In this document: positions 1,705 through 61,756 of the stretch, in pieces
Layout of the letters: each line of letters begins with the position of its first letter
How positions within the stretch are numbered: position 1 is the first letter of the stretch
DNA from: Thermoanaerobaculia bacterium
GTDB lineage: Bacteria > Acidobacteriota > Thermoanaerobaculia > Gp7-AA8
DNA length: 64,000 nt
NCBI GenBank assembly: GCA_017883205.1
Contig: JADGNZ010000002.1
Span: 124,001-188,000, forward strand
Direction of reading: 5' to 3'
Program-made: the position numbers and the translations under genes
The notes under the pieces: generated by a model
The model's input: the letters and a program-made list of their open reading frames with translations, nothing else
Database searches by the model: none
Told to the model about the DNA's origin: nothing

Positions 1705-2733
1705 ATGCGCCACCTTGCCGCCCTCGCTCTCCTTGTCTTCGCCTTTGCCGTTCATGCGCAAACGCCTGCGCCGGTCGAAGCCGACTTTCTCGTCAAAGAC
1801 TTTCACTTTGCCAGCGGCGAGGTGATGCCCGAGGCGAGGATTCACTATGCGACGATCGGGACGCTGCGGAAGACGGCGCACGGGACGAACGCGGTGCTCG
1901 TGCTGCACGGGACGGGCGGATCGCTGAAGCAGTTTCTCAACGACCACTTCTCCGGAGTGCTTTTCGCGCCGGGTGGCCTGCTCGACGCCAATCGGTACTT
2001 CATCGTCATCCCGGACAACATCGGCCACGGGAAGTCGAGCAAGCCCAGCGATGGATTGCGCGCGAAGTTTCCGCACTACGGCTACAACGACATGGTCGAG
2101 CTGCAGCATCGGCTGCTGTCCGAGGGGCTCGGCATCGATCATCTGGCAGTGGTCATGGGGACGTCGATGGGCGGGATGCAGACGTGGATGTGGGGCGAGC
2201 GCTGGCCGGACGCCGCGGACGCGCTCGTGCCGCTGGCAAGTGCACCGGCGCAGATCGCGGGGCGCAACCGCATCTGGCGGAAGATGATGATCGACGATCT
2301 GCAGCGCAACGATCTCCCGGCCGCGCTGCAGATTCTCATCCTCGTCGGCAGCAGTCCGCTGCAATGGCAGAAGGCTGCGCCGGCGCGCGATGATGCCGAC
2401 CGCTGGATCGCGGAGCAGATGAAGTCGCGCACAGCAACGAACGATGTCGACGATCTCCTCTACGCCATCGAGTCGTCGCGCGACTACGACCCCGCGCCGC
2501 AGCTCGATCGCATCGCCGCGCCTCTGCTGGCCATCAACTCGGCGGACGATTTCATCAACCCGCCGGAGCTCGGCATCATGGAGAGCGCGATCAAACGCGT
2601 GAAGCACGGACGCTACCTGCTGCTGCCGATCAGCGATGCCACGCGCGGGCATGGGACGCACACGTGGGCTCCCGTCTGGGAGAAGCAGTTGCGGGAGTTT
2701 CTGGACGGGACGACAGCCGCAGCTTGGCGGTGA
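1705..2733 (+). CDS. Secreted alpha/beta hydrolase, MetX-like fold
   Basis: 342 residues from the ATG at 1705, chosen because the signal peptide MRHLAALALLVFAFAVHA begins there; the frame extends upstream but overlaps the antitoxin gene. Motifs in order: VLVLHGTGG oxyanion loop, the nucleophile elbow GTSMGGMQ (Ser at about residue 155), an acidic NSADDFINPPE segment that could supply the catalytic Asp, and RGHGTH with the catalytic His near the C-terminus. The arrangement is that of homoserine O-acetyltransferase (MetX)-type hydrolases, but the signal peptide makes a biosynthetic role unlikely. The substrate is unknown. The stop codon touches the 21-bp repeat array. Confidence 0.8.
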   Translation: MRHLAALALLVFAFAVHAQTPAPVEADFLVKDFHFASGEVMPEARIHYATIGTLRKTAHGTNAVLVLHGTGGSLKQFLNDHFSGVLFAPGGLLDANRYFIVIPDNIGHGKSSKPSDGLRAKFPHYGYNDMVELQHRLLSEGLGIDHLAVVMGTSMGGMQTWMWGERWPDAADALVPLASAPAQIAGRNRIWRKMMIDDLQRNDLPAALQILILVGSSPLQWQKAAPARDDADRWIAEQMKSRTATNDVDDLLYAIESSRDYDPAPQLDRIAAPLLAINSADDFINPPELGIMESAIKRVKHGRYLLLPISDATRGHGTHTWAPVWEKQLREFLDGTTAAAWR

Positions 2734-3197
2734 CTCAAATTTCTTGAGTCCGGACCTTCGTTTCTTGAGTCCGGACCTTCCTTTCTTGAGTCCGGACCTT
2801 CGTTCTTGGGTCCGGACCTTCGTTTCTTGAGTCCGGACCTTCCTTTCTTGGGTCCGGACCTTCGTTCTTGGGTCCGGACCTTCGTTCTTGGGTCCGGACC
2901 TTCCTTTCTTGGGTCCGGACCTTCGTTCCTTGGGTCCGGACCTTCGTTTCTTGAGTCCGGACCTTGGTTTTTGAGTCCGGACCTTGGTTTCTTGAGTCCG
3001 GACCTTGGTTTCTTGAGTCCGGACCTTGGTTTCTTGAGTCCGGACCTTGGTTTCTTGAGTCCGGACCTTGGTTTCTTGGGTCCGGACCTCGGTTTCTTGG
3101 GTCCGGACCTTAGATTCTTGGGTCCGGACCTTCGTTTTTGAGTCCCGACTCAAGACTTGTGAGTCGAAAGCATCGATTTTGGAATACATCGCGGCAA
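2732..3197. repeat. 21-bp tandem array 1 (about 19 units plus decayed end units)
   Basis: Core 2740-3134 holds 19 tandem units of consensus TTTCTTGAGTCCGGACCTT plus two variable bases (CG, CC or GG). Fifteen units are 21 bp and four are 20 bp (19x21-4=395, the exact core length). Each unit contains the 8-bp palindrome GTCCGGAC. Units vary mainly at GAG/GGG and in the last two bases. The left end has GACTCAA (2732-2738) facing TTGAGTC (2744-2750); the right end has TTGAGTC (3138-3144) facing GACTCAA (3147-3153). Two further diverged 21-bp blocks follow to 3197. The array starts inside the stop codon of the hydrolase gene. Confidence 0.95.
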
Positions 3198-3215
3198 AAC
3201 TTGCCGAATGCATCA

Positions 3216-3290
3216 ATCTGCGTCCATCTGCGTCATCTGCGGATCGGTCCCCACCTGATTGATCCGCAGATGTCGCAGATGGACGCAGAT
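3216..3290. repeat. Dispersed palindrome with 30-bp arms (ATCTGCGTCC type)
   Basis: Arms 3216-3245 and 3261-3290 are reverse complements with one mismatch, separated by a 15-nt loop. Each arm is itself built from repeats of ATCTGCG. It could fold as a long hairpin upstream of the efflux operon. The rest of the gap to 3384 shows no further gene. Confidence 0.9.
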
Positions 3291-3384
3291 AAAGGCCTGG
3301 TACGCCGCGTTGCGCACCCAACTTCATCGTTAACCAAACGTCCAATCCTCCGTACAAGCCCTTCGGAGCTCGGAGAGATCACCT

Positions 3385-4476
3385 ATGCGGAAGCTATGGA
3401 GAACGTTGTTCATACTGGTCGTGCTGGCGGGCGCGAGTGCGGGCGTGTATGCCTGGACGCGCAGCGGGAAGAAAGACGACGGCTTCAAGCAGGTCGAAGT
3501 CATCCAGGGATCGATCGTCGAAAAGGCGGTCGCTGTCGGGCAGATCCAGCCGCGGCAGAAGTTCGCGGTCAAATCGAAGATATCGGGCATCGTCAAACGT
3601 GCCCTGGCAGAGGTCGGCGATACGGTGCACGCCGGCGATCCGCTTTTCGAGATCGCGCCTGACCCGACGCCGATGGAAGTGACCGAGGTCGATCGGCAGG
3701 TCGAATCGGCCTCGGCGTCGTATCGAAAGGCGGAAGGCGACTACCAGCGCTCGCTGCAACTCTCGCGCTCCGGCGTGCTGCCGAAGTCCGACGTCGAAGC
3801 GAAGAAAGAATCGTATGACCTCGCGAGTGTGGCCATGACGAAGGCCGAGCAGAACCGCGACCTCACGCGCAAAGGGCGACTCACCGTCTCCGGAACCGAA
3901 TCGATCATCCGCGCACCGGCGGCCGGCACGATCCTCACGCGCACCGTCAATCCGGGTGATCCGATCGTTCCGCTCACCTCGTACCAGCCCGGTACCGAGA
4001 TGGCCACCGTCGCCGACATGCGCGATCTCATCTTCAAAGGAACGGTCGACGAGATCGATGTAGGCAAACTCTCCGTCGGCATGCAGACGCGCATCAAAGT
4101 CGGTGCGCTACCCACCGACGTCGTCACCGGCCACGTCTCGCGTATCGCTCCGCAAGCGCAGCAGAAAGAGGGAGCAACGCTCTTCGACGTCGAGGTCGAG
4201 CTCGAGCCGAGCAAAATCACCTTGCGCGCCGGCTACTCCGCAAACGCCGACGTCATCATCCGCGAGCACAAAGACGTGCTGGTCATCCCGGAGCGCCTCG
4301 TCACCTTCGGCGATGGCGGCAAGACCGCCAGCGTCGAAGTGCCGGGCAGCGATCCGAAGTCTCCGAAGAAGGTCGGCATCAAAACCGGCATCAGCGACGG
4401 CCTGAATGTCGAGGTGTTGTCCGGACTGAAGAAGGGCGAGAAGGTCGTGGAGAGACCGCCGAAGGAGATTTCCTAG
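3385..4476 (+). CDS. macA: Efflux periplasmic adaptor subunit (MacA/HlyD family)
   Basis: 363 residues. One N-terminal membrane anchor (about 5-25, TLFILVVLAGASAGVYAW) is followed by a lipoyl-like half (QPRQKFAVKSKISGIVKR), a helical hairpin (about 105-160, ESASASYRKAEGDYQRSLQL), the second lipoyl half with PAAGTILTRTVNPGDPI, a beta-barrel domain and a membrane-proximal domain. This is the layout of MacA-type adaptors joining an inner-membrane ABC transporter to an outer-membrane channel. It is the first gene of a four-gene set with two permeases and an ATPase. No TolC-like gene is present in the window. Confidence 0.9.
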   Translation: MRKLWRTLFILVVLAGASAGVYAWTRSGKKDDGFKQVEVIQGSIVEKAVAVGQIQPRQKFAVKSKISGIVKRALAEVGDTVHAGDPLFEIAPDPTPMEVTEVDRQVESASASYRKAEGDYQRSLQLSRSGVLPKSDVEAKKESYDLASVAMTKAEQNRDLTRKGRLTVSGTESIIRAPAAGTILTRTVNPGDPIVPLTSYQPGTEMATVADMRDLIFKGTVDEIDVGKLSVGMQTRIKVGALPTDVVTGHVSRIAPQAQQKEGATLFDVEVELEPSKITLRAGYSANADVIIREHKDVLVIPERLVTFGDGGKTASVEVPGSDPKSPKKVGIKTGISDGLNVEVLSGLKKGEKVVERPPKEIS

Positions 4477-4606
4477 CGGGGTGTGGGGGGTCGGGGGTGG
4501 GGAGTAGGAGAAGAATCAAAACCAAACCAAGACCCGAACCACAAACCCCGACACCCGACACCCGACATAACAGATTCCACACCCCACACCCCACAACCCA
4601 CACCCC
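4474..4606. repeat. Dispersed GGGGTGTGG / CCACACCCC palindromic repeat
   Basis: The gap between adaptor and permease begins with G-rich GGGTGTGGGGGGTCGGGGG and ends with the complementary C-rich sequence (CCCGACACCCGACA, then CCACACCCCACACCCCAC). The whole gap can fold back on itself. Relatives occur at 13373, 18491, 28862, 47713 and 58266. No Shine-Dalgarno sequence precedes the permease ATG at 4607, so the repeat fills the translation-initiation region. Confidence 0.85.
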
Positions 4607-5830
4607 ATGAAGGACGTCCTCAAACAGCTTGCCCGCGACCTCAAAGCTGAGAAGCTGCGAACCTTCCTCACGATCTTTGGCATCGTCTGGGGGACCGTCG
4701 CTATCAGCCTGATGCTCGCCTTCGGCACGGGGCTGCACACGCAGCTCATCAAGTCGACTGCCGGTCTCGGCGACCGCATCGTGATCGCCTGGCCGGGCCT
4801 CACCTCGATTCCCTTCGAGGGTCTCGGTAAGGGGCGGAAAATTCGCATCACCGACGACGACCTCACTACCGCGCGCGGCAATGTTCCGGGACTGAAAGCG
4901 CTCTCCGCCGAATACTCGAACAACCTTAAGGTCGAGTACGGGACGAAAACCCTCTCCGTCGATACCTCGGGGGTCGCGCCCGAGTTCGGATCGATGCGCA
5001 ATCTGATCCCCCAGGCCGGCGGACGCTTCATCGACGACATCGATCTCGCCGAGCAGCGGCGCACTGCCTTCATCGGCAACAAACTGGCCAAAGACATCTT
5101 CGGTGAGACTCCCGCGGTCGGAAAGACCATCACCGTCAACCAGTCGCCATTTCTCGTCGTCGGCGTTCTCGTGGAGAAGGATCAGGACTCGAGCTACAGC
5201 GGCCGTGACAACGAGAAGATGTTCATCCCGTCGACCACGTTTCGCGCCCTGAACGGCGACAAGTACGTCGACAACTTCGTCTTTCAAGCCGCGGCGTCGA
5301 CCGATACAAAAGCAGTGATCGAGAAGCTGCGCTCCGCACTCGGGGGCCGTCTCCGCTTCGACGCCAAGGACAAAGAAGCACTCTCGATGTGGGACACCAC
5401 CGAGCAGTTTCAGTTCTTCGACACGTTCATGCTGGCCTTCAACGCCTTCCTCGGCATCATCGGCGTGCTGACCCTCGTCGTCGGTGGCATCGGCGTGTCG
5501 AACATCATGAACGTCGTCGTCGAGGAGCGCACCCGCGAGATCGGCATCAAGATGGCCCTCGGCGCCAAGCAGCGCTGGATCCTCTCGCAATTCCTCTTCG
5601 AGACGATGCTGGTCACGTTCCTCGGCGGCGCGATCGGATTCGCCATCTCACTGACCGTCTGCGCCATCTTCCCGAAACTGGGCCTCGCCGAGTACGTCGG
5701 CAACCCCGTCGTTTCCCCACTCGTCGCCGCGCTGACATCACTCGCGCTCGGCCTGGTCGGATTGGTGGCCGGCTACTTCCCAGCGAGAGACGCAGCGAGG
5801 CTGGACCCGGTAGTCGCGATGAAACTCTGA
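4607..5830 (+). CDS. ABC transporter permease, MacB/FtsX type
   Basis: 407 residues. TM1 lies at about 18-42 (TFLTIFGIVWGTVAISLMLA). A long periplasmic MacB-type core domain follows to about residue 275, then three C-terminal TM segments, including GIIGVLTLVVGGIGVSNIMN and the conserved cytoplasmic loop EERTREIGIKMALGAKQRWI that contacts the ATPase. The ending is PARDAARLDPVVAMKL, typical of the family. Unlike E. coli MacB it has no fused ATPase; that is the separate gene at 7294. It is paired with a second homologous permease, suggesting a heterodimeric exporter of lipids, peptides or antibiotics. Confidence 0.92.
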   Translation: MKDVLKQLARDLKAEKLRTFLTIFGIVWGTVAISLMLAFGTGLHTQLIKSTAGLGDRIVIAWPGLTSIPFEGLGKGRKIRITDDDLTTARGNVPGLKALSAEYSNNLKVEYGTKTLSVDTSGVAPEFGSMRNLIPQAGGRFIDDIDLAEQRRTAFIGNKLAKDIFGETPAVGKTITVNQSPFLVVGVLVEKDQDSSYSGRDNEKMFIPSTTFRALNGDKYVDNFVFQAAASTDTKAVIEKLRSALGGRLRFDAKDKEALSMWDTTEQFQFFDTFMLAFNAFLGIIGVLTLVVGGIGVSNIMNVVVEERTREIGIKMALGAKQRWILSQFLFETMLVTFLGGAIGFAISLTVCAIFPKLGLAEYVGNPVVSPLVAALTSLALGLVGLVAGYFPARDAARLDPVVAMKL

Positions 5831-5832
5831 AG

Positions 5833-6019: not shown

Positions 6020-6020
6020 A

Positions 6021-10092: not shown

Positions 10093-11340
10093 ATGCACGG
10101 TTTGCGAACCCTCGCCGGCACTCTGGCGATGCTCGTTTCGACAACACTCCTGGCCCAGCCTGTCGGATCAGGAGTCAGCATCGGCGAGTTGCCGTTCGGT
10201 CAGACATTCACCACTCTCGGAAGCTCCCTCGGAGCTTCGACCCTCGTCGACATCACGCAGCCCGCTTCATCGGATGGCTCGCTCACCTCCGCGACCGTTC
10301 GCTGGCAGCTCTCCGGCACGCCCTGCGCGAATGGCTACAAGATCAAAGCTCTGAGGCAGGGGACACAGCTGGGAACGTTCACGGTTGTCGGCGAGCGCGG
10401 ACCGTTTCCCACGGGATCCGGTGACCTGACTACGACGCTCAACCCGCCAATCGCAGTGCAGGCCGGTGACCTGCTCGCGGTGACGCAGATCAACCCAACA
10501 TCAGGCAACTGCGGAGGTGCGGCCCTGAGCGCCAGTGACTCGACGCACACAGCGCTCCGAATCACTGGTGACGTCCAGACGGGAGCAGCGAGCGTCGGTT
10601 CTCTGCTGCGTGGCTATCAAATCAATGCCAGGGCATCAGGAACGCTGCCCACACTCGTCGGTGTCATTCCAGGGGTTGGCTCGTTACAGGGCGCATCGGG
10701 CTCTTCCTTCCGCACGTCGATTCAAATCGCGAGCGGCGGAGCAGGCGGCCAGACCGTCAGCGGCCGGCTCGTATTTCATCCTCGCGGCACCGGCGCAAGC
10801 GCGTCGGATCCGGGCGTCGACTTCTCCCTTCAGAATCGAGACACGGTGGAGTTTGACGACATCGGCACGACGCTCAACGTTTCCGGCCTGGGAACACTTG
10901 ATGTTCTCAGCACGGGATCGTTACCTCTTGTGACCGTCCGCGTTTTCAACGACAACGGCTCTGCAGGCACTCAGGGATTCTTTGAGCCGTTCGTTCGAAC
11001 GCGCGATGCCGCCGGCCCAAATAGTCAGGTGTTGCTCACCACGCCGCACGATCCGAACAACTTTCGCATGAACATCGGCGTGCGCACATTCGAGCAGGGC
11101 GTCAGTTTTATTGTCGTGTATGCATCGAAGAGCGGCACGTCTCTCGGAACAATCGCCGCAAAGACGTTCCCTCCGAACTACTTCGAACAGTTCGGTCTGC
11201 AGCAATTCGTCGACAACATTCCAGCCAGTCCCGACGCCCTTCTCTCCTTTTTTGTCACGAACGGAAGTGCCGTGATTTATGGATCGACAACCGACAACCG
11301 CACGAACGACAGCGCCGTCGTCATCGCCAGCCGGCCGTAG
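10093..11340 (+). CDS. Secreted protein of unknown function
   Basis: 415 residues, preceded by a strong GGGGAGG ribosome-binding site. A signal peptide (MHGLRTLAGTLAMLVSTTLLA) is followed by Gly/Ser/Thr-rich sequence that appears all-beta, with two cysteines in the first part (GTPCANG and SGNCGGA). The middle linker (LPTLVGVIPGVGSLQGASGS) is followed by FRTSIQIASGG-like beta segments and RMNIGVRTFEQG. No family was recognised. Similar two-part beta proteins are common in Acidobacteriota secretomes. It converges with the SnoaL-like gene with 18 bp between stops. Confidence 0.6.
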   Translation: MHGLRTLAGTLAMLVSTTLLAQPVGSGVSIGELPFGQTFTTLGSSLGASTLVDITQPASSDGSLTSATVRWQLSGTPCANGYKIKALRQGTQLGTFTVVGERGPFPTGSGDLTTTLNPPIAVQAGDLLAVTQINPTSGNCGGAALSASDSTHTALRITGDVQTGAASVGSLLRGYQINARASGTLPTLVGVIPGVGSLQGASGSSFRTSIQIASGGAGGQTVSGRLVFHPRGTGASASDPGVDFSLQNRDTVEFDDIGTTLNVSGLGTLDVLSTGSLPLVTVRVFNDNGSAGTQGFFEPFVRTRDAAGPNSQVLLTTPHDPNNFRMNIGVRTFEQGVSFIVVYASKSGTSLGTIAAKTFPPNYFEQFGLQQFVDNIPASPDALLSFFVTNGSAVIYGSTTDNRTNDSAVVIASRP

Positions 11341-11358
11341 GGCAGGCTCATCCGCCCG

Positions 11359-11730
11359 TCATGCTTCACGATTCGTAGTGCCGCGTGCGAAGCGCCAGCG
11401 CCCATCGTCACACCGTCGCGCCAGCGTCCAGCCCCGTTGTGTGACGACGATCGGCTCGCCGCCGTCGGGAGTCACCTGAGTGACCTCGAGGCCGACGCTG
11501 ACGATGAAGTCGTCGCCGCTGAGGCGCTCGATCTCGTTCCACGTCTGCTCGAACGATCTCGCCGCGAATGCGTTGCGAAACGCTGCGGCGACGGCATCGC
11601 GACCGCGCAGGGCCGGTGCGCCATGCGCCCAGAACTCGCAATCCTCCGTAACCATCGCGGCCAACCCCTCGGCGTCCTTCCTGCGAACTGCCTCGGCCCA
11701 GTCAGCAAACAGTCGTTCGATGTCGTCCAT
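11359..11730 (-). CDS. SnoaL-like/DUF4440 (NTF2 fold) protein
   Basis: 123 residues. The N-terminal helix IERLFADWAEAVRRKDAEGL followed by AAMVTEDCEFWAHGAPALRG, an IVSVGLEVTQVTP strand and a C-terminal WRFARGT strand is the classic SnoaL/DUF4440 layout (NTF2-like cone, often isomerase or hydrolase-like). It is the last gene in the run 14476-11359 and starts 8 bp after the MoaD/ThiS-like stop, so it is probably in the same transcript. The substrate is unknown. Confidence 0.8.
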   Translation of the reverse strand: MDDIERLFADWAEAVRRKDAEGLAAMVTEDCEFWAHGAPALRGRDAVAAAFRNAFAARSFEQTWNEIERLSGDDFIVSVGLEVTQVTPDGGEPIVVTQRGWTLARRCDDGRWRFARGTTNREA

Positions 11731-11738
11731 GGGCCAGT

Positions 11739-11966
11739 TTATCCGCCGGCGAAGGCGACGACGATCTCGACCTCGTCGCCGTTTTTCAGCGTGACGTTTT
11801 TCTCGCCGTGGAGAATCAGTTCGCCGTTGACCGCGAAGTTGAACAACTCATCGCGGTCGCCTGCGAGATCGAGACGGGCGATGATGTCATCGAGCGAGAC
11901 GGCGTTCATCGTCATGACATCGCCGCGGCCTTCGCGCAAGGGCTCGGGGAGATGGACCGTGATCAT
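11739..11966 (-). CDS. MoaD/ThiS-family sulfur-carrier protein
   Basis: 75 residues from the ATG at 11966; the longer upstream frame overlaps the TIR gene and is rejected. It begins ITVHLPEPLREG and ends in VEIVVAFAGG; the C-terminal Gly-Gly is the thiocarboxylation site of MoaD/ThiS proteins. The body has the ubiquitin-like pattern (TMNAVSLDDIIARLDL, then ELILHGEKNVTLKNGDEVEI). MoaD-like genes often accompany tungsten aldehyde oxidoreductases, where they likely serve pterin cofactor synthesis. Here the AOR gene lies upstream in the same operon, separated by the TIR gene. Confidence 0.88.
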   Translation of the reverse strand: MITVHLPEPLREGRGDVMTMNAVSLDDIIARLDLAGDRDELFNFAVNGELILHGEKNVTLKNGDEVEIVVAFAGG

Positions 11967-11974
11967 CGGACCCG

Positions 11975-12376
11975 TCACGCAGCTTTCTTCAGGAACTTGA
12001 CGATTCTCTCCGCTGCCCGTTGCGGGTCCTGGGCCTCTTTGATGAAGGGCAAGTCGCGAAGGATCCATGGATAGCGGAAGGGCACCTGCGACGGCGCCCT
12101 TCGTTCGACAGTGATGACGCGATTTTCAAAGCGCGGCGTCGTCAGTGCGAATTCGAACGCCTTTTTCAGATCGGGCGAGCCGCTCGTCTTCGCTGAGATA
12201 ACGAGGACCATCGCGTCGGCCCGATCGAGTGCTCGTGCTCCCGATCGAAGCCAATTCGTTCCCGGCTCGACATCACTGGCATCGAGCCATGCGTCCACGC
12301 CGGCGTTGCGCAACGAATCGGCAATCTCGGCTGCGAACTCCCGGTCGGCATCGCCGTGGCTGATGAATACGAACAT
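11975..12376 (-). CDS. Stand-alone TIR-domain protein
   Basis: 133 residues, all one domain. MFVFISHGDADREFAAEIAD is box 1 of a TIR domain, LRNAGVDAWLDASDVEPGTN covers box 2, and DAMVLVISAKTSGSPDLKK is the strand and turn before the catalytic helix. In NADase TIRs this turn normally reads S-x-W-C-x-x-E; here it reads SPDLKKAFEFA, with Ala at the usual Glu position and Glu two residues later, so enzymatic activity is uncertain. It lies 12 bp after the AOR stop and 8 bp before the MoaD/ThiS start, an unusual operon position. Confidence 0.85.
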   Translation of the reverse strand: MFVFISHGDADREFAAEIADSLRNAGVDAWLDASDVEPGTNWLRSGARALDRADAMVLVISAKTSGSPDLKKAFEFALTTPRFENRVITVERRAPSQVPFRYPWILRDLPFIKEAQDPQRAAERIVKFLKKAA

Positions 12377-12388
12377 GGCGGTCCTATT

Positions 12389-14476
12389 CTACGACGCCAA
12401 CACGCCTTCGAGCTCCTCGCGCCACTCCGGTTTCGGCACGCCTTCCTCGGTGAGGTTCGAGATCTCGTAGAAGCGGGAGAGCATCTTGTCGAACTCGGCG
12501 CGGTCGATCTTTTCGCCTTTGTATGGGCCGACGCCGATCGCTTCCTCGAACCAGCGTTTGGGCAGCGTGTCGTCCGCGCGCGTGACACCGATTCTCTCGT
12601 TGATAAGGCGCTCCACGCCCATCACGTTGAGGCCGATGGCGTCGATCTGTTCGGCGGTCAGCGAGATGCCGGTGACGTTCTCGACTTGATCGACAAACTC
12701 GGGGTAGCCCGGGAGCGACGGAGAGTTGAAAAGCTTCGTCGTGAAGCGGCACATGCCGACTGAATCGCCGACGGCGTAGATGTTCTCGCATCGGCGGACG
12801 GCGATCTCTTTGCCTTCGTAGCTATTCGGCTCCGCGGAAACCGGGCCGCCGTAGAGCTCCGCTTTGAAGTCGGGCGAGTCGTTGATCTTGGCGTTGATCT
12901 CGAGCGTGACGCGGTTGCGCAGGTGGTCCATGCCGCGCGTGGCGACGGCGAGCCCGAGGGCGAAGGCTTTGAGGATGCGCGCATCGTGCGGATCGCTCTG
13001 CGTCAATCCTTTCACCGCCATCAAATAGTCGAGCGCCTCGGCTGGATACTTGCCGTTAGCCACCGCCTGCGACGAATCGGCGATCGTGTCGCCGATGCCC
13101 TCGCGTTTAGCGATCATGAAAAGGAGCTTCTCGATGACGTCGTAGTTGCCCCACGTCAGATCGAGCTTCGTCTGTTCCTGCGTGATGATGCCGCGCTGGT
13201 AGAGCTCCATCGCCCACGCGATCGCCGAACCGGCTGATGCTGTATCGAGCCCGAGGTCGTTGCAGATGTTGTTGAGCCGCAGAACCTGAGTGACTTCGGT
13301 GATGCCGATATTCGGACCGAACTTGCCGAGGGTCACGTATTCGGGGCCGTCACCTTTGATGTACTTGTCGGGCGGGGGGGTGGGGTGTGGGGTGTCGGGG
13401 GTGGAAGAAGACGCCGACGCGCCCGCGCTCTCTGGCTGTCCAGCTTGAAATGCGGAGTTCGGCAAATGGGCCGAGTGACGGTTCTCCGACTCCCCACTCC
13501 CCACTCCCCACTCCCCAACACCAGACATATCGTTCAGCGGCCGGCAATTCACGGGACAGGCGAAGCAGCCCTCCATCCCGGGGCGATACGGATCGATGTT
13601 CTCGGCATCGAGCTTGTCGGTCCAGGTGGTCTCCTGATTGTTCTTCGTTCCCATCGCGCCGAGCATGCGCGACGGTTTATAGAGGAACGGCGTACCGCGA
13701 ATCTTCAGCGCGTTCTTGACGACCGAGGTCGAGAGCAGCTTCAGCGCGACATCGCGGTTGCGCAGCTTGTGCGGGCGGGCGGTGGTGAGGTCGGCGGCGC
13801 GGCCCTGAATGAGGACCGCCTTGAGATGCAGGCCGCCCATCTTCGCGCCCGGTCCGCCGCGCGCATAAATCGCTTTCGGGCCGGCCATGATGCCGGAGCA
13901 GAGGACGAGGTTCTCGCCCGCGGTGGTGATCGCGGCGAGGCCGTAGTCCTTCCCTTCGACGCCCTTGAAATCTTCTGCGAGCCGCGCGCGAAGATCGAGA
14001 TTGTCGAGACCAACCCAAGGAGCGGCATCGACGAACTTCGGTTCGTTTCCTTCAAAGTGCAGCAGCGTCCACTTCGCCGCTTTGCCGTAGAGCACGAGGT
14101 GATCGATGCCGTTGAGCTTCATGAACGACGGGAAGTAGTCGCCGGCGTTCGAATCCATCAACACGCGTGACTCTGGCGACCACGATGTGACGTTGCCGCG
14201 CGATGCCGAGGGCACCATCGACGTCAGGATGCCGGTGCCGAAGATGAGAGGAACGTGAGGATGGATAGGCTCGAGGGTCTCATCGAGCAGGTTGTGGAGC
14301 AGAAACATGTTCACGCCGCGCCCGCCGAGGAGGGTCTCGACGACGCGGAGGGGGATGTAAGCGCGCCTCACTTCCTGATGCTCGAGGTCGACGAAGATCG
14401 TCTGGCCCTGCGTAGGAAACTGCGGATCGGAGGCGAGCCGCCCGAGGAGCGCATCGACGCGCGCGTGGATGGACAT
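12389..14476 (-). CDS. aor: Aldehyde:ferredoxin oxidoreductase, tungsten-type, with in-frame insert
   Basis: 695 residues; family members are usually about 600-630. The N-terminal domain (IFVDLEHQEVRRAYIPLRVV, then the LLGGRGVNMFLLHNLL cofactor segment) and GPGAKMGGLHLKAV are AOR signatures. The [4Fe-4S] cysteines are CFACPVNC (about 302-308) and the Cys of GMCRF (about 574). These enzymes oxidise aldehydes to acids with ferredoxin, using a tungsten bis-pterin, in the cytoplasm. Residues about 316-368 (Gly/Ser/Pro-rich, starting SGVGEWGVGS and ending DTPHPTPPPD) are encoded by a dispersed palindromic repeat and have no counterpart in the family. Downstream are TIR and MoaD genes. Confidence 0.92.
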   Translation of the reverse strand: MSIHARVDALLGRLASDPQFPTQGQTIFVDLEHQEVRRAYIPLRVVETLLGGRGVNMFLLHNLLDETLEPIHPHVPLIFGTGILTSMVPSASRGNVTSWSPESRVLMDSNAGDYFPSFMKLNGIDHLVLYGKAAKWTLLHFEGNEPKFVDAAPWVGLDNLDLRARLAEDFKGVEGKDYGLAAITTAGENLVLCSGIMAGPKAIYARGGPGAKMGGLHLKAVLIQGRAADLTTARPHKLRNRDVALKLLSTSVVKNALKIRGTPFLYKPSRMLGAMGTKNNQETTWTDKLDAENIDPYRPGMEGCFACPVNCRPLNDMSGVGEWGVGSGESENRHSAHLPNSAFQAGQPESAGASASSSTPDTPHPTPPPDKYIKGDGPEYVTLGKFGPNIGITEVTQVLRLNNICNDLGLDTASAGSAIAWAMELYQRGIITQEQTKLDLTWGNYDVIEKLLFMIAKREGIGDTIADSSQAVANGKYPAEALDYLMAVKGLTQSDPHDARILKAFALGLAVATRGMDHLRNRVTLEINAKINDSPDFKAELYGGPVSAEPNSYEGKEIAVRRCENIYAVGDSVGMCRFTTKLFNSPSLPGYPEFVDQVENVTGISLTAEQIDAIGLNVMGVERLINERIGVTRADDTLPKRWFEEAIGVGPYKGEKIDRAEFDKMLSRFYEISNLTEEGVPKPEWREELEGVLAS
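13373..13528. repeat. Dispersed palindrome inserted inside the AOR coding region
   Basis: The left part is GGGGGGTGGGGTGTGGGGTG; the right part is CCGACTCCCCACTCCCCACT followed by CCCCACTCCCC. The two can pair. The same family fills intergenic gaps at 4474 and 58266. Here the reading frame of the oxidoreductase stays open through the element, adding about 50 residues after the first three Fe-S cysteines. Confidence 0.85.
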
Positions 14477-28861: not shown

Positions 28862-29432
28862 AGGGGGGTCGGGGGTCGGGGAAAGGCACGGTACCTGACT
28901 CTGACTGGTTCCCAGGCTCTCGCAAACGACGACGTCAACTTCTCGAATGACTCCATTCCTTACGATATCCGAAACGCAAGTCTCGATATTGAAGACTAGC
29001 CGTTCAACATTGCGGAGTCTTCGTTCAATATCGCAGAGTCTCCGTTTCGAAACGAAAAGTCTCCGTTTAACATTGGAGAGCCTCCGTTTCACATCAGAGA
29101 GCTTCCGTTTCACTTTGGAAAGCCTCTGTTTGACATTGGAAAGCCTCCGTTTGACATTGGAAGGCTTCCGTTTAACATTGGAGAGCTTCCGTTTGACATT
29201 GGAAGGCTTCCGTTTAACATTGGAGAGCTTCCGTTTAACATTGCAAAATTGCCGTTTAACTTTGGAAAGTCGTGGTGATTCGCGAGCCAGGATCAACGGC
29301 TTCAGCAATCTCTGTCTTGCCAAGGGGCGAATTGGCTTTATCTGATTCCAAAAGAATCGGGTTCGCTGACTTCGGGACGGATTTCGAGTGCGAGACCGCG
29401 TTAGGGATGATGGCGCCGATAGCGGGCCGTCG
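28862..29432. repeat. Intergenic region between convergent genes, holding array 2
   Basis: Starts with GGGGGGTCGGGGGTCGGGG, a partial copy of the family at 18491. The 21-bp array lies at 28964-29278. The remaining 150 bp to the kinase stop has no gene that I can support. Confidence 0.7.
28964..29278. repeat. 21-bp tandem array 2 (15 units, no indels)
   Basis: Fifteen consecutive 21-bp units without a single indel. The consensus starts AACATTGGAGAGCTTCCG and ends TTT. Units alternate between a GACATTGGAAGG form and an AACATTGGAGAG form; at 29153-29236 the pair is repeated exactly (42-bp higher-order repeat). The first five units are more diverged, including one with TTCGAAACG. It lies between the convergent TPR and kinase genes. 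The open heptad frame through part of it is a by-product of the 21-bp period. Confidence 0.95.
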
Positions 29433-35893: not shown

Positions 35894-36878
35894 AGGGACA
35901 TTATTGCGCGGCCTGGCGGCCGCGCGTTGTCGGTTGTCGGTTGATTGCGCTTCGCGCGTTGCCGGGGGACGAACAATGCTCCCGCCAAGGCTTGTCAGCA
36001 AAGACGAACAAACATCGTCAACGGACAACTGCTAGCCCCTGCTAGCCCGCATTTCTCACACGCTTGCGACTTCTTGCTACACCTCGTCCTTTTCTAGACT
36101 CACGATCGATGGTTCGAAACACAGCATCGTGGGTGCAGTCCGCAGCATCGCGGGTGGAAACAGCAGCATCGCGGGAACAAAACGCTGCATCGTGGGTACA
36201 GAACGCTGCATCGCGGCTGCAAACCGCTGCATCGCGGGTGCAAACAGCAGCATCGTGAGTGCAGACCGTAGCATCGTGGGTGCAGTCCGCAGCATCGTGA
36301 GTGCAGGCCACATAATCGTGGGTGCAGGCCGCATCATCGTGGGTGCAGGCCGCATCATCGTGAGTGCAGACCACATCATCGTGGGTGCAGAACACTTCAT
36401 CGTGGGTTCAGAACACTTCATCGTGGGTGCAGAACATCTCATCGGGGGTGCAGAACATCTCATCGGGGGTGCACAACATCTCATCGGGGGTGCACAACAT
36501 CTCATCGGGGGTGCACAACATCTCATCGGGGGTGCACAACATCTCGTCGTGAGTGCAGACCACATCATCGTGGGTGCAGAACATCTCATCGCGGGTGTGA
36601 ATCACGTGATCGCGGGTGAAAGACACAGCGTCGAGGGTCTGAAACATTGGATCGATGCTTCGAAACGTGCCCAGCCGGCTCACGGACGGCGCGACGCCAA
36701 CAACATCAGCAGCAGCCAAGGGTCCCGCGGTTTGCTCCCGCCCGTTTTAACTTGTCATTTGTCACAGTTGTCGATCAAAGGAGCCCCAAGAGTGTAAGAA
36801 ATGCCGGCTAGCGCAACCAAGCGCGACAACGCGCGAAGCGCAACCAACCGACAACCGACAACGCGCGAAGCGCAAGAA
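35894..36878. repeat. 985-bp intergenic region holding array 3 between 40-bp inverted repeats
   Basis: Inverted repeats at 35922-35961 and 36827-36866 match at 39 of 40 positions (right arm CAACGCGCGAAGCGCAACCA, then ACCGACAACC). A relative lies at 5955-6000. Between them is the 27-unit array (36100-36666) and two short non-repetitive flanks. Open frames in the array are by-products. I see no supported gene. The glgP promoter must lie near the left arm. Confidence 0.9.
36100..36666. repeat. 21-bp tandem array 3 (27 units, no indels)
   Basis: 567 bp, exactly 27 x 21 with no indel. Consensus core CATCGTGGGTGCAGAAC preceded by a variable 4 bases. The middle is homogenised: four identical neighbours (17th-20th after the first). 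The first and last units differ from the rest but resemble each other: both contain GATCGATGSTTCGAAAC (36104-36120 and 36650-36666). Reading frames through it give long heptad repeats in several frames, with stops in some units, so coding is not supported. Confidence 0.97.
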
Positions 36879-41202: not shown

Positions 41203-41372
41203 AGCAGAGAGCAGCGACAAGAGATCAGAGATCAGAGATCAGAGATCAGAGATCAGAGATCAGAACAACCACCTGATCTCTTGTCTCTGATCTCTTGCAT
41301 GAGCCGAAAGTGAAAGAGATCAGAGATCAGGAGCAAACAGCCCGATCTATTGTCTCTGATCTCTGCGTCACC
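41203..41372. repeat. AGAGATC microrepeat forming long hairpins
   Basis: AGAGATC recurs several times at 8-bp spacing (41218-41263), followed by the complementary TGATCTCTTGTCTCTGATCT at 41274-41293, and again AAGAGATCAGAGATCAGG with GATCTATTGTCTCTGATCTC at 41340-41363. The two pairs can form nested hairpins between the divergently placed holA 3' end and the MFS start. The motif recurs at 5870-5946. Confidence 0.85.
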
Positions 41373-58251: not shown

Positions 58252-58265
58252 GCGGCGGGGAGACT

Positions 58266-58425
58266 AGCATGGGAGGGGGGTGGGGTGTGGGGAGTGGGGG
58301 GTGGGAGCGGGATTGACGGTGGTTGGCAGCCGTAGTGAACGATCACTTCCTACACCTCGGAGAGTTCGGATGCGGAGTCCACTCCCCACTCCCTACTCCC
58401 CAACACCAGCTATAGTTGCACCCGA
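58266..58425. repeat. Dispersed GGGGAGTGGGG / CCCCACTCCC palindrome
   Basis: GGAGGGGGGTGGGGTGTGGG, GAGTGGGGGGTGGGAGC at the start and CCACTCCCCACTCCCTACTC at 58379-58398. The arms can pair across about 90 nt. It is the same family as the inserts at 4474 and 13373. It lies in the leader of the cysteine dioxygenase gene. Confidence 0.85.
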
Positions 58426-58434
58426 GGAACCCGC

Positions 58435-59070
58435 ATGGACCTGCACAACAGCCCCGCCTCTTCCACACAGCCGGTTTACTCGCCGGCGCCGGTTCCGGTC
58501 GAACAGTTCATCGACAGCATCCGCGAGCTGTCGATGGGCGTCATCACCAAGCAGAAGATCTACGACTTTCTGGCCACCTACCAGATCCGCGACGAGGACC
58601 TCGAGCGGTACAAGATGTGGCTGCCCGAGCGCCACACGCGCAACAAAGTCTTCCGCAACGACATGATCGAGGCGATGGTGATCTGCTGGCCCGCCGGCAC
58701 GATCACGCCCCTGCACACGCACAACGGCCAGCTCGGCTGGATGACGATGATCGAAGGGAAGCTCGTCGTCGAGAACTACAAGAAGGTCGACTGCAACCGC
58801 CCCGAGAACCAGCAGGTGGTGGGCATGGACTGCCTGGCCGGAGCGACCCGAATCGAGATGCAAGCCCTCGGCACGGAGCTTTGCGTCCCGGGCGGTCCGG
58901 TGAACACCGTCGACAAGACGCAGACGATCCACCGCATCAAGAATCTGGCCGAGTGGAACGAGCGCGCCGTCAGCCTCCACGTCTACTCGCGTCCCATCGA
59001 CTCGTGCGTCGTCTTCGACGTCGAAGGCGGTACGTGCTTCCGCCGCGAACTGAAGTACGACAACGAGTAA
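58435..59070 (+). CDS. Cysteine dioxygenase type I
   Basis: 211 residues, about 200 in the family. ITPLHTHNGQLGWMTMIEGK has the iron ligands HxH; the third His is in SLHVYSRPIDSCVVFD, with Tyr as in the family active site. Cupin beta-barrel. It oxidises cysteine to cysteine sulfinate. It sits upstream of a glyoxalase-like gene and matches the cysteine-making genes at 46.5-48.8 kb in function. Confidence 0.9.
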   Translation: MDLHNSPASSTQPVYSPAPVPVEQFIDSIRELSMGVITKQKIYDFLATYQIRDEDLERYKMWLPERHTRNKVFRNDMIEAMVICWPAGTITPLHTHNGQLGWMTMIEGKLVVENYKKVDCNRPENQQVVGMDCLAGATRIEMQALGTELCVPGGPVNTVDKTQTIHRIKNLAEWNERAVSLHVYSRPIDSCVVFDVEGGTCFRRELKYDNE

Positions 59071-59075
59071 TCCGC

Positions 59076-59444
59076 GTGCCCGCCATCGCCCTTCACCACG
59101 TTCAGGTGGCCATTCCGCGCGGCGAAGAAGATCGAGCCCGCGCTTTCTACGGCGGCGTGCTTGGCCTGACCGAGATCCCGAAGCCGGCTAACCAGCGCGA
59201 GCGCGGCGGACTTTGGTATCGCGTCGGAACGCTCGAGTTGCACATCGGCGTCGAGGACGATTTCCGCCCGGCGAAGAAAGCGCATCCTGCGCTTCTGGTC
59301 GACGACCTCGCGGCCGTCATCGCGCTCGCCGAGGCGGGAGGCCATCCGTCGCGGCCGGATACGCTCGTGATCGAAGGCTACGACCGCGTGTTCGTCAGCG
59401 ATCCGTTCGGCAATCGGATCGAGTTGCTGGAGAGATTGGGTTAG
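59076..59444 (+). CDS. Glyoxalase/VOC-family protein
   Basis: 122 residues from GTG 59076, 5 bp after the dioxygenase stop. HHVQVAIPRGEEDRARAFYG, LHIGVEDDFRPAKKAHPALL, and DPFGNRIELLE at the end are vicinal-oxygen-chelate signatures with metal ligands at His and Glu. Substrates vary in this family. It is probably co-transcribed with the cysteine dioxygenase. Confidence 0.85.
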   Translation: MPAIALHHVQVAIPRGEEDRARAFYGGVLGLTEIPKPANQRERGGLWYRVGTLELHIGVEDDFRPAKKAHPALLVDDLAAVIALAEAGGHPSRPDTLVIEGYDRVFVSDPFGNRIELLERLG

Positions 59445-59518
59445 CGATAGAGATCAAGTGGATTAGCCTGGATTAGCCCCGTGGGCCGCCGAATCCGTTG
59501 AATACGCTCAAAACGTGA

Positions 59519-59613
59519 GGTGTCATCCTGAGCCAGCCGGAGGCGCCCGCGCTACTCATCACTCTCGCACTGACTCTCCCTCGGCGCCGCAGGACGGCGA
59601 AGGATCTCAAAAT
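59519..59613. repeat. Dispersed TCATCCTGAG palindrome, left copy
   Basis: TGTCATCCTGAGCCAGCCGG at the start, CGGCGCCGCAGGACGGCGAA at the end, then GGATCT. A related copy in inverted orientation lies at 61333-61456, so the two bracket the 516-residue gene. Confidence 0.8.
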
Positions 59614-59722
59614 GCGAAGATCTCGTTCGAGCGTCTTTGATCACGATCGCTCGCGCTGGACGAACACGATCTGCGAAGTTTGAACTACTACTTCCGAAAA
59701 ACGTCGAGCGGCGCGCCGTTTT

Positions 59723-61273
59723 TTACGCGGCTTTAGCGAGAAGTTGGGTGACGTCGGCGTTTCTCGTAGCGAAGATCGCAGCGATGAGTGTTTGACCTTC
59801 TTCCGTGAGTCGGTAGCGCGTTGTTTTCTGGATTTTCTGGACCAGGCCGTGAGCGCGAAGAATGCGTATCTGTCTGCTGACCTTGGCGGCGAGGCGTCGT
59901 TGCTCGATTGCGGAGTCGCCACCGGCAGGGTAGAGCCGGCCGCGGATGTCGCGATTGCGAAAGCCGGAGATTGCGAACTCACCTCGAGCGACGATGTCGA
60001 GCAGAGCAAGATCGTTGGAGTCGGCCAGACGGAGAGCACGAACGCGTCGGCCTTTGCCGGTCACAGGTTGGGAGACGGTATCGAAGATCTTGGAGCATGG
60101 CGTGGTATCGCCCGTTGCGGAGAGAGCATTGAAGTAGGTGTGATTGGCTCGTTGTGAGACCTCGGCCCGGCGATAGAGATCGGCCACTCCCTTGCGCATA
60201 GGGAGCCACTGACGTTTGCCTTTGGGGTGGTTCTGAAGAGGCCGGAAGACCTTGAAGTCCGTGGGGTCCCCGATGGTCGTTTCCACGCGGAGGACACTGC
60301 CGGCTTTGTCGTACATCTTGATGGAGTTGCCGCGTAGCCAGTGTTTGACGCGAACCCCTTCGGCGCGGTCTTTGAAGCTGGTGACGATCTCTCCCGTAAA
60401 GTTCCCCGGAGCTTTCGGAGCAAGGAACCTCATCACGTCGGGGCTTTTCAAAGCGAGCATGCCGTAGCGGACAAGCGGAGGATAGACATCGGCCAGACTG
60501 CGTGGATCTTGGAACATGACATCGGTCGCCAACTCGGTTTGGTAGCCCGTCCAGTAGTAGTCCATGGGTGAGCAGCGGAAGATTGCTTGATGCTGTGGGT
60601 TGATGGAGCGGGCGATGGCGTTGAGCGCCCGAGGCCAGTCGGTGCGGAGTTGATCGTCCATCAGGCGCTGGGCCAGCTTAGGGTTTCCAAGCCAGGTGAA
60701 GCAGTTGTCCGCGCGCTTGAAGTTGTCCTGGCCTTTGCGCAACAACTGGCGGGCAAGCCACTCCCGTCCGTTGATGCAGATCTGAATCGTGAACGGGAAC
60801 CAGGTCTGGATGCGGGCGTTCATGAAACCGAACCGAGGATCAAGCCAGTAGTGATAGAGATGAAGACACTTGCTCGGGTGGAGCCGCAATCCCCTTTCGG
60901 CGAGGTTGGCCGAACGCTGATACTCGAATGTCATGCAGGGCTCGATAGCTTTGAACACACAGATGAGCCCTTGCTCAACAGGGTTCTTGGCCAGGATCTC
61001 GCGTGCCCGCTTTTGCTTGTCGTCGCCTGATTGGAGGTACTCGATCGGCCGGTTCTTCCGATGCGCCTCTGCCATCGAGCCCTCCTTGAGTTGTTCGGTC
61101 GTGGCAAGAGCGAACTTCTTGAAGTCGAGCAGCCTCACCTTCGCGTCCATCAGCAGGAAGTGCATGCCGTCGTGCCGCATCAGACGCTGCAAGATCCCGT
61201 GAAAGACGACCCGGTCGAATCCAGACAGCACACCAGTGACGAGCGAGCGATAGCGTGATAGAAACTTCTCCAC
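59723..61273 (-). CDS. Unclassified 516-residue protein, candidate mobile gene
   Basis: 516 residues. It begins MEKFLSRYRSLVTGVLSGFD and RVVFHGILQRL. The middle has LYHYWLDPRFGFMNARIQTW, FPFTIQICINGREWLARQLL, MDYYWTGYQTELATDVMF and VKHWLRGNSIKMYDK, and the C-terminus is a winged-helix-like segment (LAAKVSRQIRILRAHGLVQK). I recall proteins like this as a widespread multi-copy 'hypothetical' family in bacterial genomes, but it is not a named transposase that I can confirm. The bracketing inverted repeats and stand-alone position suggest mobility; no terminal inverted repeats of its own were found. The adjacent gap has array 4. Confidence 0.6.
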   Translation of the reverse strand: MEKFLSRYRSLVTGVLSGFDRVVFHGILQRLMRHDGMHFLLMDAKVRLLDFKKFALATTEQLKEGSMAEAHRKNRPIEYLQSGDDKQKRAREILAKNPVEQGLICVFKAIEPCMTFEYQRSANLAERGLRLHPSKCLHLYHYWLDPRFGFMNARIQTWFPFTIQICINGREWLARQLLRKGQDNFKRADNCFTWLGNPKLAQRLMDDQLRTDWPRALNAIARSINPQHQAIFRCSPMDYYWTGYQTELATDVMFQDPRSLADVYPPLVRYGMLALKSPDVMRFLAPKAPGNFTGEIVTSFKDRAEGVRVKHWLRGNSIKMYDKAGSVLRVETTIGDPTDFKVFRPLQNHPKGKRQWLPMRKGVADLYRRAEVSQRANHTYFNALSATGDTTPCSKIFDTVSQPVTGKGRRVRALRLADSNDLALLDIVARGEFAISGFRNRDIRGRLYPAGGDSAIEQRRLAAKVSRQIRILRAHGLVQKIQKTTRYRLTEEGQTLIAAIFATRNADVTQLLAKAA

Positions 61274-61332
61274 GGCGTCCTCCTTTTTGGGGCGAAAGGG
61301 TTGTTTGTCACAGCCTTTCTACCCGAAGAGCG

Positions 61333-61456
61333 ACGCCGTTTCATCTTGGGTTGCGGGCGCAGCCCGCGCTAGGATCCTTCGACGTCCTGCGCCGCCGAGC
61401 ACGCACTGCGCAAACATCGCGATTCGAGCGGGCGGCTCCGGCAGCCTCAGGATGAC
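61333..61456. repeat. Dispersed TCATCCTGAG palindrome, right (inverted) copy
   Basis: GGATCCTTCGACGTCCTGCG and GCCGCC at the left, GGCTCCGGCAGCCTCAGGAT followed by GACACC at the right. The ends are the reverse complements of the left copy ends. The spacer sequences differ. Confidence 0.8.
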
Positions 61457-61546
61457 ACCAACTCGATCGGACAGTCGGGATAACATCACACGGAAAGCAC
61501 CAATCGTGGAATGATTCTGCGTCGTTCCACCAAATTTGGCATCAAG

Positions 61547-61756
61547 AACATCGAAATCGTCGTTGACATCCAGATTCTCGACGTTGACATCGAGACCTCT
61601 CGATAAAGATCTCCAGATTCTCGATAAAGATCTCCAGATTCTGGATGAAGATCTCCAGATTCTCGACGTTAACATCCAGATTCTGGATGAAGATATCTAG
61701 ATTCTCAGACGTTGACATCCAGATTCTGGATGAAGATATCTAGATCGACAACTAAA
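61547..61756. repeat. 21-bp tandem array 4 (about 9-10 units)
   Basis: From 61565 units are 21, 22, 21, 21, 21, 21, 22 and 21 bp, then a partial. Heads (GACATCCAGATT, GATCTCCAGATT, AACATCCAGATT, GATATCTAGATT) are combined with tails (CTCGACGTT, CTGGATGAA, CTCGATAAA) in different ways. An 18-bp degenerate unit precedes at 61547 (AACATCGAAATCGTCGTT). It is AT-richer than its surroundings. It lies 120 bp upstream of kbl. Confidence 0.92.

Follow-up and report, generated by a model that had tools for sequence, protein, structure and literature searches.

Intergenic tandem arrays with a common 21 bp period and unrelated units in a Thermoanaerobaculia lineage: dispersed minisatellites possibly held at two helical turns

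Four tandem arrays in a 64 000-nucleotide stretch of Thermoanaerobaculia DNA (the window) have unrelated units and a shared 21 bp period. This shared period is no local coincidence, as such arrays are not limited to the window and are present elsewhere in the genome and in two relatives. This suggests that length, not sequence, is what is kept. The reading preferred here, to which a probability of roughly 0.38 is given, is that the four arrays may belong to a class of dispersed intergenic minisatellites that occurs genome-wide in this lineage, fast-evolving but held at two helical turns, the likeliest reader being a sequence-tolerant architectural protein.

The four arrays of the window

All four arrays of the preliminary description, each with a 21 bp period, were recovered by TRF, and all four lie between predicted genes, as had been proposed. 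The arrays and their flanks are as follows.

2740–3149, forward strand: array 1, unit TTTCTTGAGTCCGGACCTTCG; 19 complete units, 15 of 21 nt and four of 20 nt (TRF)
3138–3209, forward strand: non-repetitive flank of array 1; 72 bp in common with the other copy of this array, at 83%
29000–29269, forward strand: array 2, unit CCGTTTAACATTGGAGAGCCT; 12 complete units, all 12 of 21 nt (TRF)
36092–36116, forward strand: short left flank of array 3; 25 bp, 96% to a copy on contig C1
36117–36638, forward strand: array 3, unit CATCATCGTGGGTGCAGACCA with drifting variants; 24 complete units, all 24 of 21 nt (TRF)
36639–36812, forward strand: non-repetitive right flank of array 3, carried by several of its copies; up to 174 bp at 91%
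61521–61560, forward strand: left flank of array 4; 40 bp, 87.5% to a copy on contig C82
61565–61745, forward strand: array 4, unit GACATCCAGATTCTCGATGAA; eight complete units, six of 21 nt and two of 22 nt (TRF)
61746–61849, forward strand: right flank of array 4; about 105 bp, 79% to a copy on contig C82

By blastn the four arrays constitute four separate families, in agreement with the earlier statement that their units are unrelated. That two arrays are exact holds for arrays 2 and 3, but the 15 and 27 units counted in them need limits wider than those given by TRF (12 and 24 units). The other two had been described as mixing units of 20, 21 and 22 nt; array 1 contains only the 21 and 20 nt lengths and array 4 only 21 and 22. 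Array 1 has a single other long copy in the genome (G000:C1:106076–106463, 90% identity). Array 2 has five additional genome matches, some of which are fragments of one array, and array 4 has seven. Array 3 has 14 additional matches within its own genome, five copies being aligned over the right flank, and none in the 19 other genomes. No known RNA family reached the gathering threshold in the window.

A common register of the four units, also claimed in the preliminary description, was not borne out: the best same-strand rotation gives four identical columns, a result equalled or bettered by 52 of 60 shuffled sets (P = 0.87). For 24 hand-picked representatives of 21 bp families, with both strands considered, the best joint register yields a weak signal of 9.85 bits, 40 shuffled sets giving 9.13 ± 0.36 (z = 2.0). 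Since random alignment does as well, the suggestion of phased sites for one sequence-specific protein is unsupported.

Period, unit length and setting across the lineage

The array-bearing genome to which the window belongs (G000) is that of a soil Acidobacteriota bacterium. Tandem arrays of at least 80 bp and at least three copies were counted in 818 648 sampled bases of it. A period of 20–22 bp was found in 40 of 55 arrays and a period of exactly 21 bp in 33, one array split by a stretch border being counted twice; the peak at 21 beyond the window, a check named beforehand, is strong in the sampled genome. When no selection on period is applied, 45 of the 55 fall at 20–22 or 40–43 bp. Among longer periods, 43 bp arrays are present and three-turn arrays (31–32 bp) are nearly missing, with a single array of 32 bp. 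By extrapolation, the whole genome would contain about 300 arrays. An assembly artefact was rejected on the position of arrays internal to long contigs in three genomes.

The same period is found in G002, from the genus of G000, and in G009, from a different genus. Within the former genus, two species carry 43–49 arrays of period 20–22 per Mb, whereas the 260 kb sampled from a third (G001) contain none. This absence is probably real, because none of the 22 contig ends inspected in G001 is array-like, as against four of 19 in G002. No such array was present in 280 kb of G012, and no 21 bp array in 60 kb of G010. Outside the class, 65 loci (1.2 Mb) yielded one such array, with a period of 20.

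Unit length was recorded for 758 units of three genomes, in arrays pre-selected for a period of 20–22. It is 21 nt in 598 units and 20–22 nt in 743, and the mean unit of 21.11 bp corresponds to 2 × 10.56. Relative to the mode of their own array, 101 units differ by one and 10 by at least two; the mode itself is 21 in 48 arrays, 22 in nine and 20 in one. Array period is unrelated to predicted twist. Between neighbouring units there are 169 length changes and 2504 substitutions. Gap events per substitution amount to 0.09–0.15 in arrays, compared with 0.31–0.42 in copied flanks (13 pairs, 10 of them from one family, flanks being aligned locally and units globally), and the ratio is not higher in diverged arrays (0.08–0.16). 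A rough hand estimate of neutral drift, which puts unrelated families 1.5 substitutions per site apart, gives a variance of about 2–6 for between-family length differences, as against about 0.3 from modal lengths. Plain drift is argued against, since indels per substitution are fewer than in flanking DNA and the periods are narrowly spread.

With respect to genes, 55 of 60 arrays lie outside predicted ones (<30% overlap) and the remaining five under short ORFs of 180–378 nt. Gene positions, the lack of any lag-3 signal of codon periodicity in the arrays and the units of 20 and 22 nt rule out coding repeats. There is no significant preference for convergent or divergent gaps (convergent, 8 of 33 array gaps vs 32 of 232 others; P = 0.12). 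Of 71 neighbour genes listed, 64 were scanned (56 plus the eight of the window) and seven left out; none recurs, and no Pfam family occurs in more than two of the 56. Array spacing on contigs C1–C3 is somewhat more even than that of random intergenic sites (CV 0.70 vs 0.92–0.93, P 0.02–0.035, 29 gaps). A phage origin was rejected, two array patterns having no exact matches in viral contigs.

The arrays form small dispersed families, and families and sites differ from species to species. One alignment of G000 with G002, poor outside genes, was used for array positions alone. Links by blastn tie 37 of the 60 arrays to another array, one link joining the two parts of an array that a stretch border divides, and 23 are unlinked.

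Explanations for the fixed period

According to the preferred reading, slippage or unequal recombination would allow arrays to grow and homogenize, and copying to other intergenic sites would spread them while the unit sequence changed quickly. An array may be used, or tolerated, only while its unit length equals an integral number of helical turns, which would keep the length, and whole-turn units would present the same DNA face for any unit sequence. The likeliest reader of the phase is a putative abundant, low-specificity DNA-binding or DNA-bending protein of the nucleoid-associated type, through which the arrays could serve as chromosome-organizing elements between genes. This is supported by the recurrence of the 21 bp peak, on diverse units, in three genomes belonging to two genera, and by the low gap to substitution ratio, narrow modal lengths, intergenic sites, even spacing and lack of any internal sub-period, a half-turn sub-repeat (10–11 bp) included, or codon periodicity. 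An excess of dyad symmetry points the same way: the mean z of 37 representatives is 1.36 ± 0.26, compared with 0.13 ± 0.07 for 150 random intergenic 21-mers, with z of at least 2 in 15 representatives and below 2 in 22.

Other observations weaken the case for phase reading. Dyad symmetry is not apparent in the four units of the window (z 0.3–0.9), and predicted curvature, calculated from wedge angles, is not raised above that of shuffled units (mean z 0.27 ± 0.23). A groove-contacting protein might leave a 10/11 bp rhythm of conservation along the unit, and there is none. Phase alone would allow the three-turn arrays that are nearly missing; G001 lacks arrays in spite of belonging to the same genus, two array sites in G002 are merely 4 kb apart, and homogenization alone could purge indels. 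It is a possible but doubtful extension that these arrays are a 'period-only' element, with some 300 intergenic arrays per genome, selected for helical phase (21–22 bp) and not for sequence, and giving rapidly changing, satellite-like chromosome organization through a putative sequence-tolerant reader.

A close rival, tentative in its turn, is a copying or mutational mechanism with a ruler of about two turns, for example an enzyme nicking, priming or template-switching 21–22 bp apart on one DNA face, which would make arrays from arbitrary sequence and leave them functionless and decaying. This accounts for unrelated units at one period, for species-specific families and for the absence from G001 and G012. 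Exact 9-base runs in array-free intergenic DNA are also mildly raised at lag 21 (15 runs, whereas lags 19, 20, 22 and 23 have 1, 8, 5 and 3). However, two-copy duplications of at least 72% identity in such DNA show no excess at 21 (5, compared with 30 at lag 15, 10 at 23, 7 at 18 and 4 at 22), so that no nursery of 21 bp dimers was found; none of the lags between 5 and 69 is prominent in this DNA, and the indel ratio stays low in diverged arrays. There is also no candidate enzyme. Sixteen of 20 genomes, array-poor ones included, carry a Y1 transposase, and reverse transcriptase, absent from G001, is shared by G000, G002 and G009 with G010 and G012, in which no arrays were seen (60 and 280 kb). 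As neither discriminates array-bearing genomes, both were rejected as the array maker. Common descent of all arrays from one ancestral 21 bp array, spread and then drifted by concerted evolution with the period inherited and indels simply rare, is improbable. Families have dispersed together with their flanks, units change gradually along an array, young dimers are few and families resemble one another faintly (12–14 of 21 matches in 109 pairs vs 83 ± 10 for GC-matched intergenic 21-mers), all consistent with such an origin. Against it stand the rough drift variance, a point that indel-purging homogenization would weaken, and the units of G009, which match those of G000 at no more than 14 of 21 positions and those of G002 at no more than 12.

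It is less probable still that the arrays are the variable middle of small mobile elements, either BOX-like or retro-copied non-autonomous RNAs, acting via RNA hairpins or carried as passengers. Copies do share part of their flanking DNA, frequently over a longer distance on one side, and the dyad symmetry of the 15 representatives and the distribution of reverse transcriptase among G000, G002, G009 and G001 would fit. In G002, a 695 bp intergenic interval contains an array, whereas homologous DNA in G000 is 19 bp apart. Yet no flank piece is common to different families in the 200 bp flanks of the searched G000 arrays, sharing being confined to families or to general dispersed repeats. The array 3 copies have ragged right ends, no terminal repeats or target duplications were noticed in an unsystematic look, reverse transcriptase is found in G010 and G012 too, and the fixed 21 would be left unexplained. 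Derivation of the units as threefold multiples of the 7 bp repeats common in this lineage is largely refuted as a general rule and very improbable. Heptamer arrays are indeed frequent (39 per Mb in G000 vs 0.8 per Mb in loci outside the class), G001 is poor in heptamers and 21 bp arrays alike, and one family (L023:17709, L038:13390) has a visible 7 bp sub-period (self-match 0.57 and 0.47). Nevertheless, the lag-7 self-match of the consensus, 0.207 over 32 arrays, falls short of what shuffling predicts (z −1.7); 28 and 35 bp arrays are absent while 22 and 43 bp arrays exist, and G012 and G010 have heptamers but no 21 bp arrays in 280 and 60 kb.

Comparison with known repeat systems

Descriptions of bacterial tandem repeats usually rest on sequence; a fixed length combined with a free sequence, as in this genome, separates length-setting from sequence-setting causes. 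The arrays are a natural test between selection for helical phase alone in bacterial chromosomes and a fixed step in the duplication machinery, and the lineage offers a contrast inside one genus between array-rich species and the array-free G001 sample. Searches of the open-licence PMC literature turned up no account of bacterial chromosomal arrays that combine a 21 bp period with unrelated units.

With tandem units of 10–100 bp at several intergenic places, the arrays qualify as dispersed bacterial (VNTR-like) minisatellites. They are not CRISPR arrays, as the units stand head to tail without unique spacers. Plasmid iterons are direct repeats about two helical turns apart, with one sequence per replicon and a rep gene and origin adjacent. 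The two-turn spacing is alike, but here many unrelated arrays adjoin ordinary genes; the differing sequences, and the lack of a rep family among the eight window neighbours or the families listed (the first 25 of 89) for the 56 other neighbours, speak against iterons. REP and BIME elements are dispersed intergenic repeats, some of them dyad-symmetric, REPs being one palindromic family per genome. Intergenic dispersal and partial dyad symmetry are shared with them, but the arrays are not one palindromic family. A REP-like family is present as a separate entity.

The pneumococcal BOX elements are dispersed intergenic composites in which flanking modules enclose a tandem middle of variable size; they form one family with fixed end modules and a single boxB sequence (PMC3049150). 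The arrays resemble them in dispersal and in a variable tandem middle with flanks, but belong to many unrelated families without common ends; shared modules at the two ends, as expected of a BOX-type composite, were not found in the 200 bp G000 flanks. The heptameric repeats of Xanthomonas and Nostoc likewise have a favoured unit length in intergenic DNA, for which polymerase slippage has been proposed; there is one G-rich 7-mer family per genome, whose sites mostly have the same flanking genes in both of two related genomes (PMC4692102). By comparison, the arrays have 21 bp units of many sequences at sites that are not conserved, and, with the exception of one family, no 7 bp period over 32 arrays. 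Borg elements carry many tandem arrays per genome, nearly all with their own unit, which evolve fast and are absent from relatives; their repeats are perfect, A-rich and of many unit lengths, about half in genes, although intergenic ones of about 20 nt exist (PMC9879509). Many arrays in one genome, mostly differing units, fast evolution and absence from relatives are features that the arrays share with Borgs. However, the arrays are of fixed length (20–22 nt in 743 of 758 units), with diverged units that are often not unique to a locus (37 of 60 arrays linked), and are intergenic in a bacterial chromosome.

Period and distribution of the arrays

Four tandem arrays with unrelated units had been described in the window as intergenic, sharing a 21-bp period and a common register. 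TRF recovers all four at 21 bp, and they do lie between predicted genes (hexamer-based calls made in this analysis), in gaps of 672, 571, 985 and 507 bp. For these four units the register is no better than random (P = 0.87); a joint register across 24 family representatives is weak (z = 2.0). The features in the window are as follows.

2740-3149: array 1
3216-3290: 75-bp imperfect palindrome just past array 1 (inverted self-match of 83%), which may be a hairpin element in its own right
4547-4607, 13489-13517, 41205-41264, 58271-58305 and others: heptamer (7-bp) arrays
29000-29269: array 2
35921-35964, minus strand: REP-like repeat flanking array 3
36117-36638: array 3
36824-36867, plus strand: REP-like repeat flanking array 3, inverted relative to the other
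61565-61745: array 4

The window lies on contig C2 (124001-188000) of the Thermoanaerobaculia genome G000 (6.37 Mb, 105 contigs). The period peak extends beyond it: in 818,648 b of G000 (the window and 40 stretches, a non-random sample beginning with the first contigs), 33 of 55 arrays of at least 80 bp and at least 3 copies have period 21. Five have period 22, two 20, five 40–43, and ten others 7 bp (four), 147 bp (two) and 14, 15, 32 and 381 bp (one each); one array, split at the border between stretches L031 and L032, was entered twice. Extrapolation gives ~300 arrays of period 20–22 in the whole genome. Such arrays also occur in one congener and in another genus, G009, whose units match those of G000 at no more than 14 of 21 positions (21-bp consensuses compared).

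Arrays of period 20–22 bp by source (DNA sampled; arrays)
G000: 818,648 b; 48.9 per Mb
G002, same genus: 327,878 b; 42.7 per Mb
G001, same genus: 259,685 b; 0 (~12 expected at the G000/G002 rate)
G009, another genus: 280,000 b; 14.3 per Mb
G012: 280,000 b; 0
G016 and G010: 60,000 b each; 0
G018 and G013: 40,000 b each; 0
G003: 17,042 b; 0
G004: 5,668 b; 0
13 named loci of the lineage (L046-L058): 184,108 b; 0
65 loci outside the class (L059-L123; L081 and L121 are Acidobacteriota by title): 1,199,181 b; 1 (period 20)

The 21/22-bp arrays of G009 are at L178:17080-17436, L300:3950-4137, L303:1015-1377 and L306:18850-19343. In the G000 stretch L014, two large arrays (1537-3052 and 10607-12198) with units of 381 and 147 bp, both multiples of 3, are probably repeat domains in genes. 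Heptamer arrays, at 39 per Mb in G000, are also common across much of the lineage as sampled, reaching 217 per Mb in 60 kb of G010. They are scarce in G001, at 7.7 per Mb, and outside the class, where the loci give 0.8 per Mb.

Neighbourhood, families and copies

By Pfam, the genes flanking the window arrays are ordinary: alpha/beta hydrolase, HlyD-type adaptor, TPR protein, protein kinase, carbohydrate phosphorylase, prolyl oligopeptidase and a class I/II aminotransferase fold. The last adjoins array 4 and is, as we take it from its sequence, a 2-amino-3-ketobutyrate ligase type enzyme; its nearest named relatives are in MAGs titled Thermoanaerobaculia or Acidobacteriota, with 91% identity in Chersky.31_28 and in CP_BM_ER_20. 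A 516-aa protein, also adjoining array 4, had no match in the Pfam search. Overall, 55 of 60 arrays lie outside predicted genes and five under short ORFs of 180–378 nt; array gaps and other gaps show no significant difference in the orientation of the genes around them. Along contigs C1-C3 (L004-L015, L024-L043 and the window; 32 sites, 29 gaps, mean gap 21 kb), spacing has a CV of 0.70, against 0.92 ± 0.14 and 0.93 ± 0.14 under two null models (uncorrected P = 0.035 and 0.0225). The sites look slightly more even than random intergenic sites, but this is only a hint, because two arrays in G002 sit only 4 kb apart.

Among the 60 arrays (49 from G000, 11 from G002), blastn ties 37 to another and leaves 23 unlinked; the L031/L032 link among the 37 is the single array cut by the stretch border. 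Elsewhere in G000, array 1 has one 25-bp match and one long copy, the latter with 72 bp of right flank in common; arrays 2, 3 and 4 have five, fourteen and seven further matches, some being pieces of one array. Copies of array 3 have common non-repetitive flank of up to 174 bp on the right and 25 bp on the left, and the array 4 copy ~105 and 40 bp, respectively. The pair L007:14290 and L034:7473 lies within a 1.2-kb duplication (87%) extending into a predicted gene. No flank common to the families was found in the 200-bp flanks searched around G000 arrays. None of 19 other genomes, both congeners among them, has the array-3 element. The REP-like repeat (~44–50 bp) bracketing array 3 is not part of the copies on other contigs; its pieces make up most of 57 matches in G000, many as close inverted pairs elsewhere.

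Upstream of the orthologous phosphorylase gene, seven of eight relatives' loci have no 20–22-bp repeat; that of G002 has one of 20 bp (2.2 copies), 26 bp before the gene. At another site, 695 bp in G002 (L157:12909-13603), which hold an array and two GGGCGAGACGCC motifs of REP-like type, correspond to 19 bp in G000 (L039:2382-2400). In G000, homologous DNA of the next gene spans only ~190 bp here and is followed by other arrays, with different units of 22 and 21 bp, ~290 bp away.

Reverse transcriptase is present in five of 20 genomes, the array-bearing G000, G002 and G009 together with G010 and G012, and was not found in G001. The sole G000 match is G000:C42:88763-89560; three of 12 matches exceed the cut-off of a group II intron model and that of G000 falls below it (234.6 of 300 bits). 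A tie to the arrays is a lead, and that the arrays themselves are a mobile or RNA element seems improbable.

Unit length and the forces that may keep it

In 758 complete units from 58 arrays of period 20–22 in three genomes, length is 21 nt in 598, 22 in 109, 20 in 36 and other in 15 (mean 21.11, hand-computed from the counts); 647 units are at their own array's mode, 101 are off by one and ten by at least two. Adjacent units differ at 17% of positions (2504/14532). Gap events per substitution are 0.15 within arrays (linear gaps; 0.09 affine) and, with the same scores, 0.42 (0.31 affine) in non-repetitive flanks copied between family members, where 13 of 15 pairs passed the score filter (linear gaps), ten from the array-3 family, and alignment was local rather than global as for units. 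Gaps longer than 1 nt under affine scoring number 27 of 242 in arrays versus 24 of 62 in flanks. Because diverged arrays keep low indel ratios, continuing constraint is favoured; homogenisation may contribute.

Consensus units have a GC content of 0.53, versus 0.59 in array-free intergenic DNA, and predicted curvature is not increased. On average the units exceed random intergenic 21-mers in dyad symmetry (z of at least 2 in 15 of 37 representatives, the window's four units being below that). Across 32 arrays, conservation is correlated between adjacent positions (lag 1, z 3.3) and has no 10/11-bp or 3-bp rhythm; self-match falls short at lag 9 (z -3.0), is slightly in excess at lag 6 (z 2.1) and is not raised at lag 10. 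Nor is it raised at lag 7, which makes it very improbable that 21 bp represents 3 x 7.

Three forces could each keep the period while sequence changes: descent with drift, copying against a ruler, and selection acting on phase. Common descent of the period with drifting sequence is unlikely: modal lengths (48 arrays at 21, nine at 22, one at 20) give a variance of length differences of ~0.3, against ~2–6 expected between families by a rough hand estimate from 169 length changes and 2504 substitutions, assuming 1.5 substitutions per site between unrelated families. A built-in ruler setting 21 bp during copying is a less doubtful proposal. Working constantly, it should leave young period-21 dimers, and no excess of these was found; there is a mild rise in exact 9-base runs at lag 21 (15), and rapid growth could mask dimers. 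The best fit, with a probability of roughly 0.4, is that the arrays would act as a phased platform for a putative sequence-tolerant DNA-binding protein. It fits best when two turns, one-base tolerance, any sequence, dyad tendency and intergenic placement are taken together.

Relation to known repeats

Iterons have a spacing of two helical turns, as do the arrays. BOX elements (PMC3049150) resemble the arrays in being dispersed with a tandem middle, Borg repeats (PMC9879509) in having their own units and changing fast, and heptamer repeats (PMC4692102) in having a single favoured length. One defining feature of each of these four kinds was looked for in the arrays and was not found. They are filed here among dispersed bacterial minisatellites, set apart by a period that is fixed at two turns and a sequence that is free.
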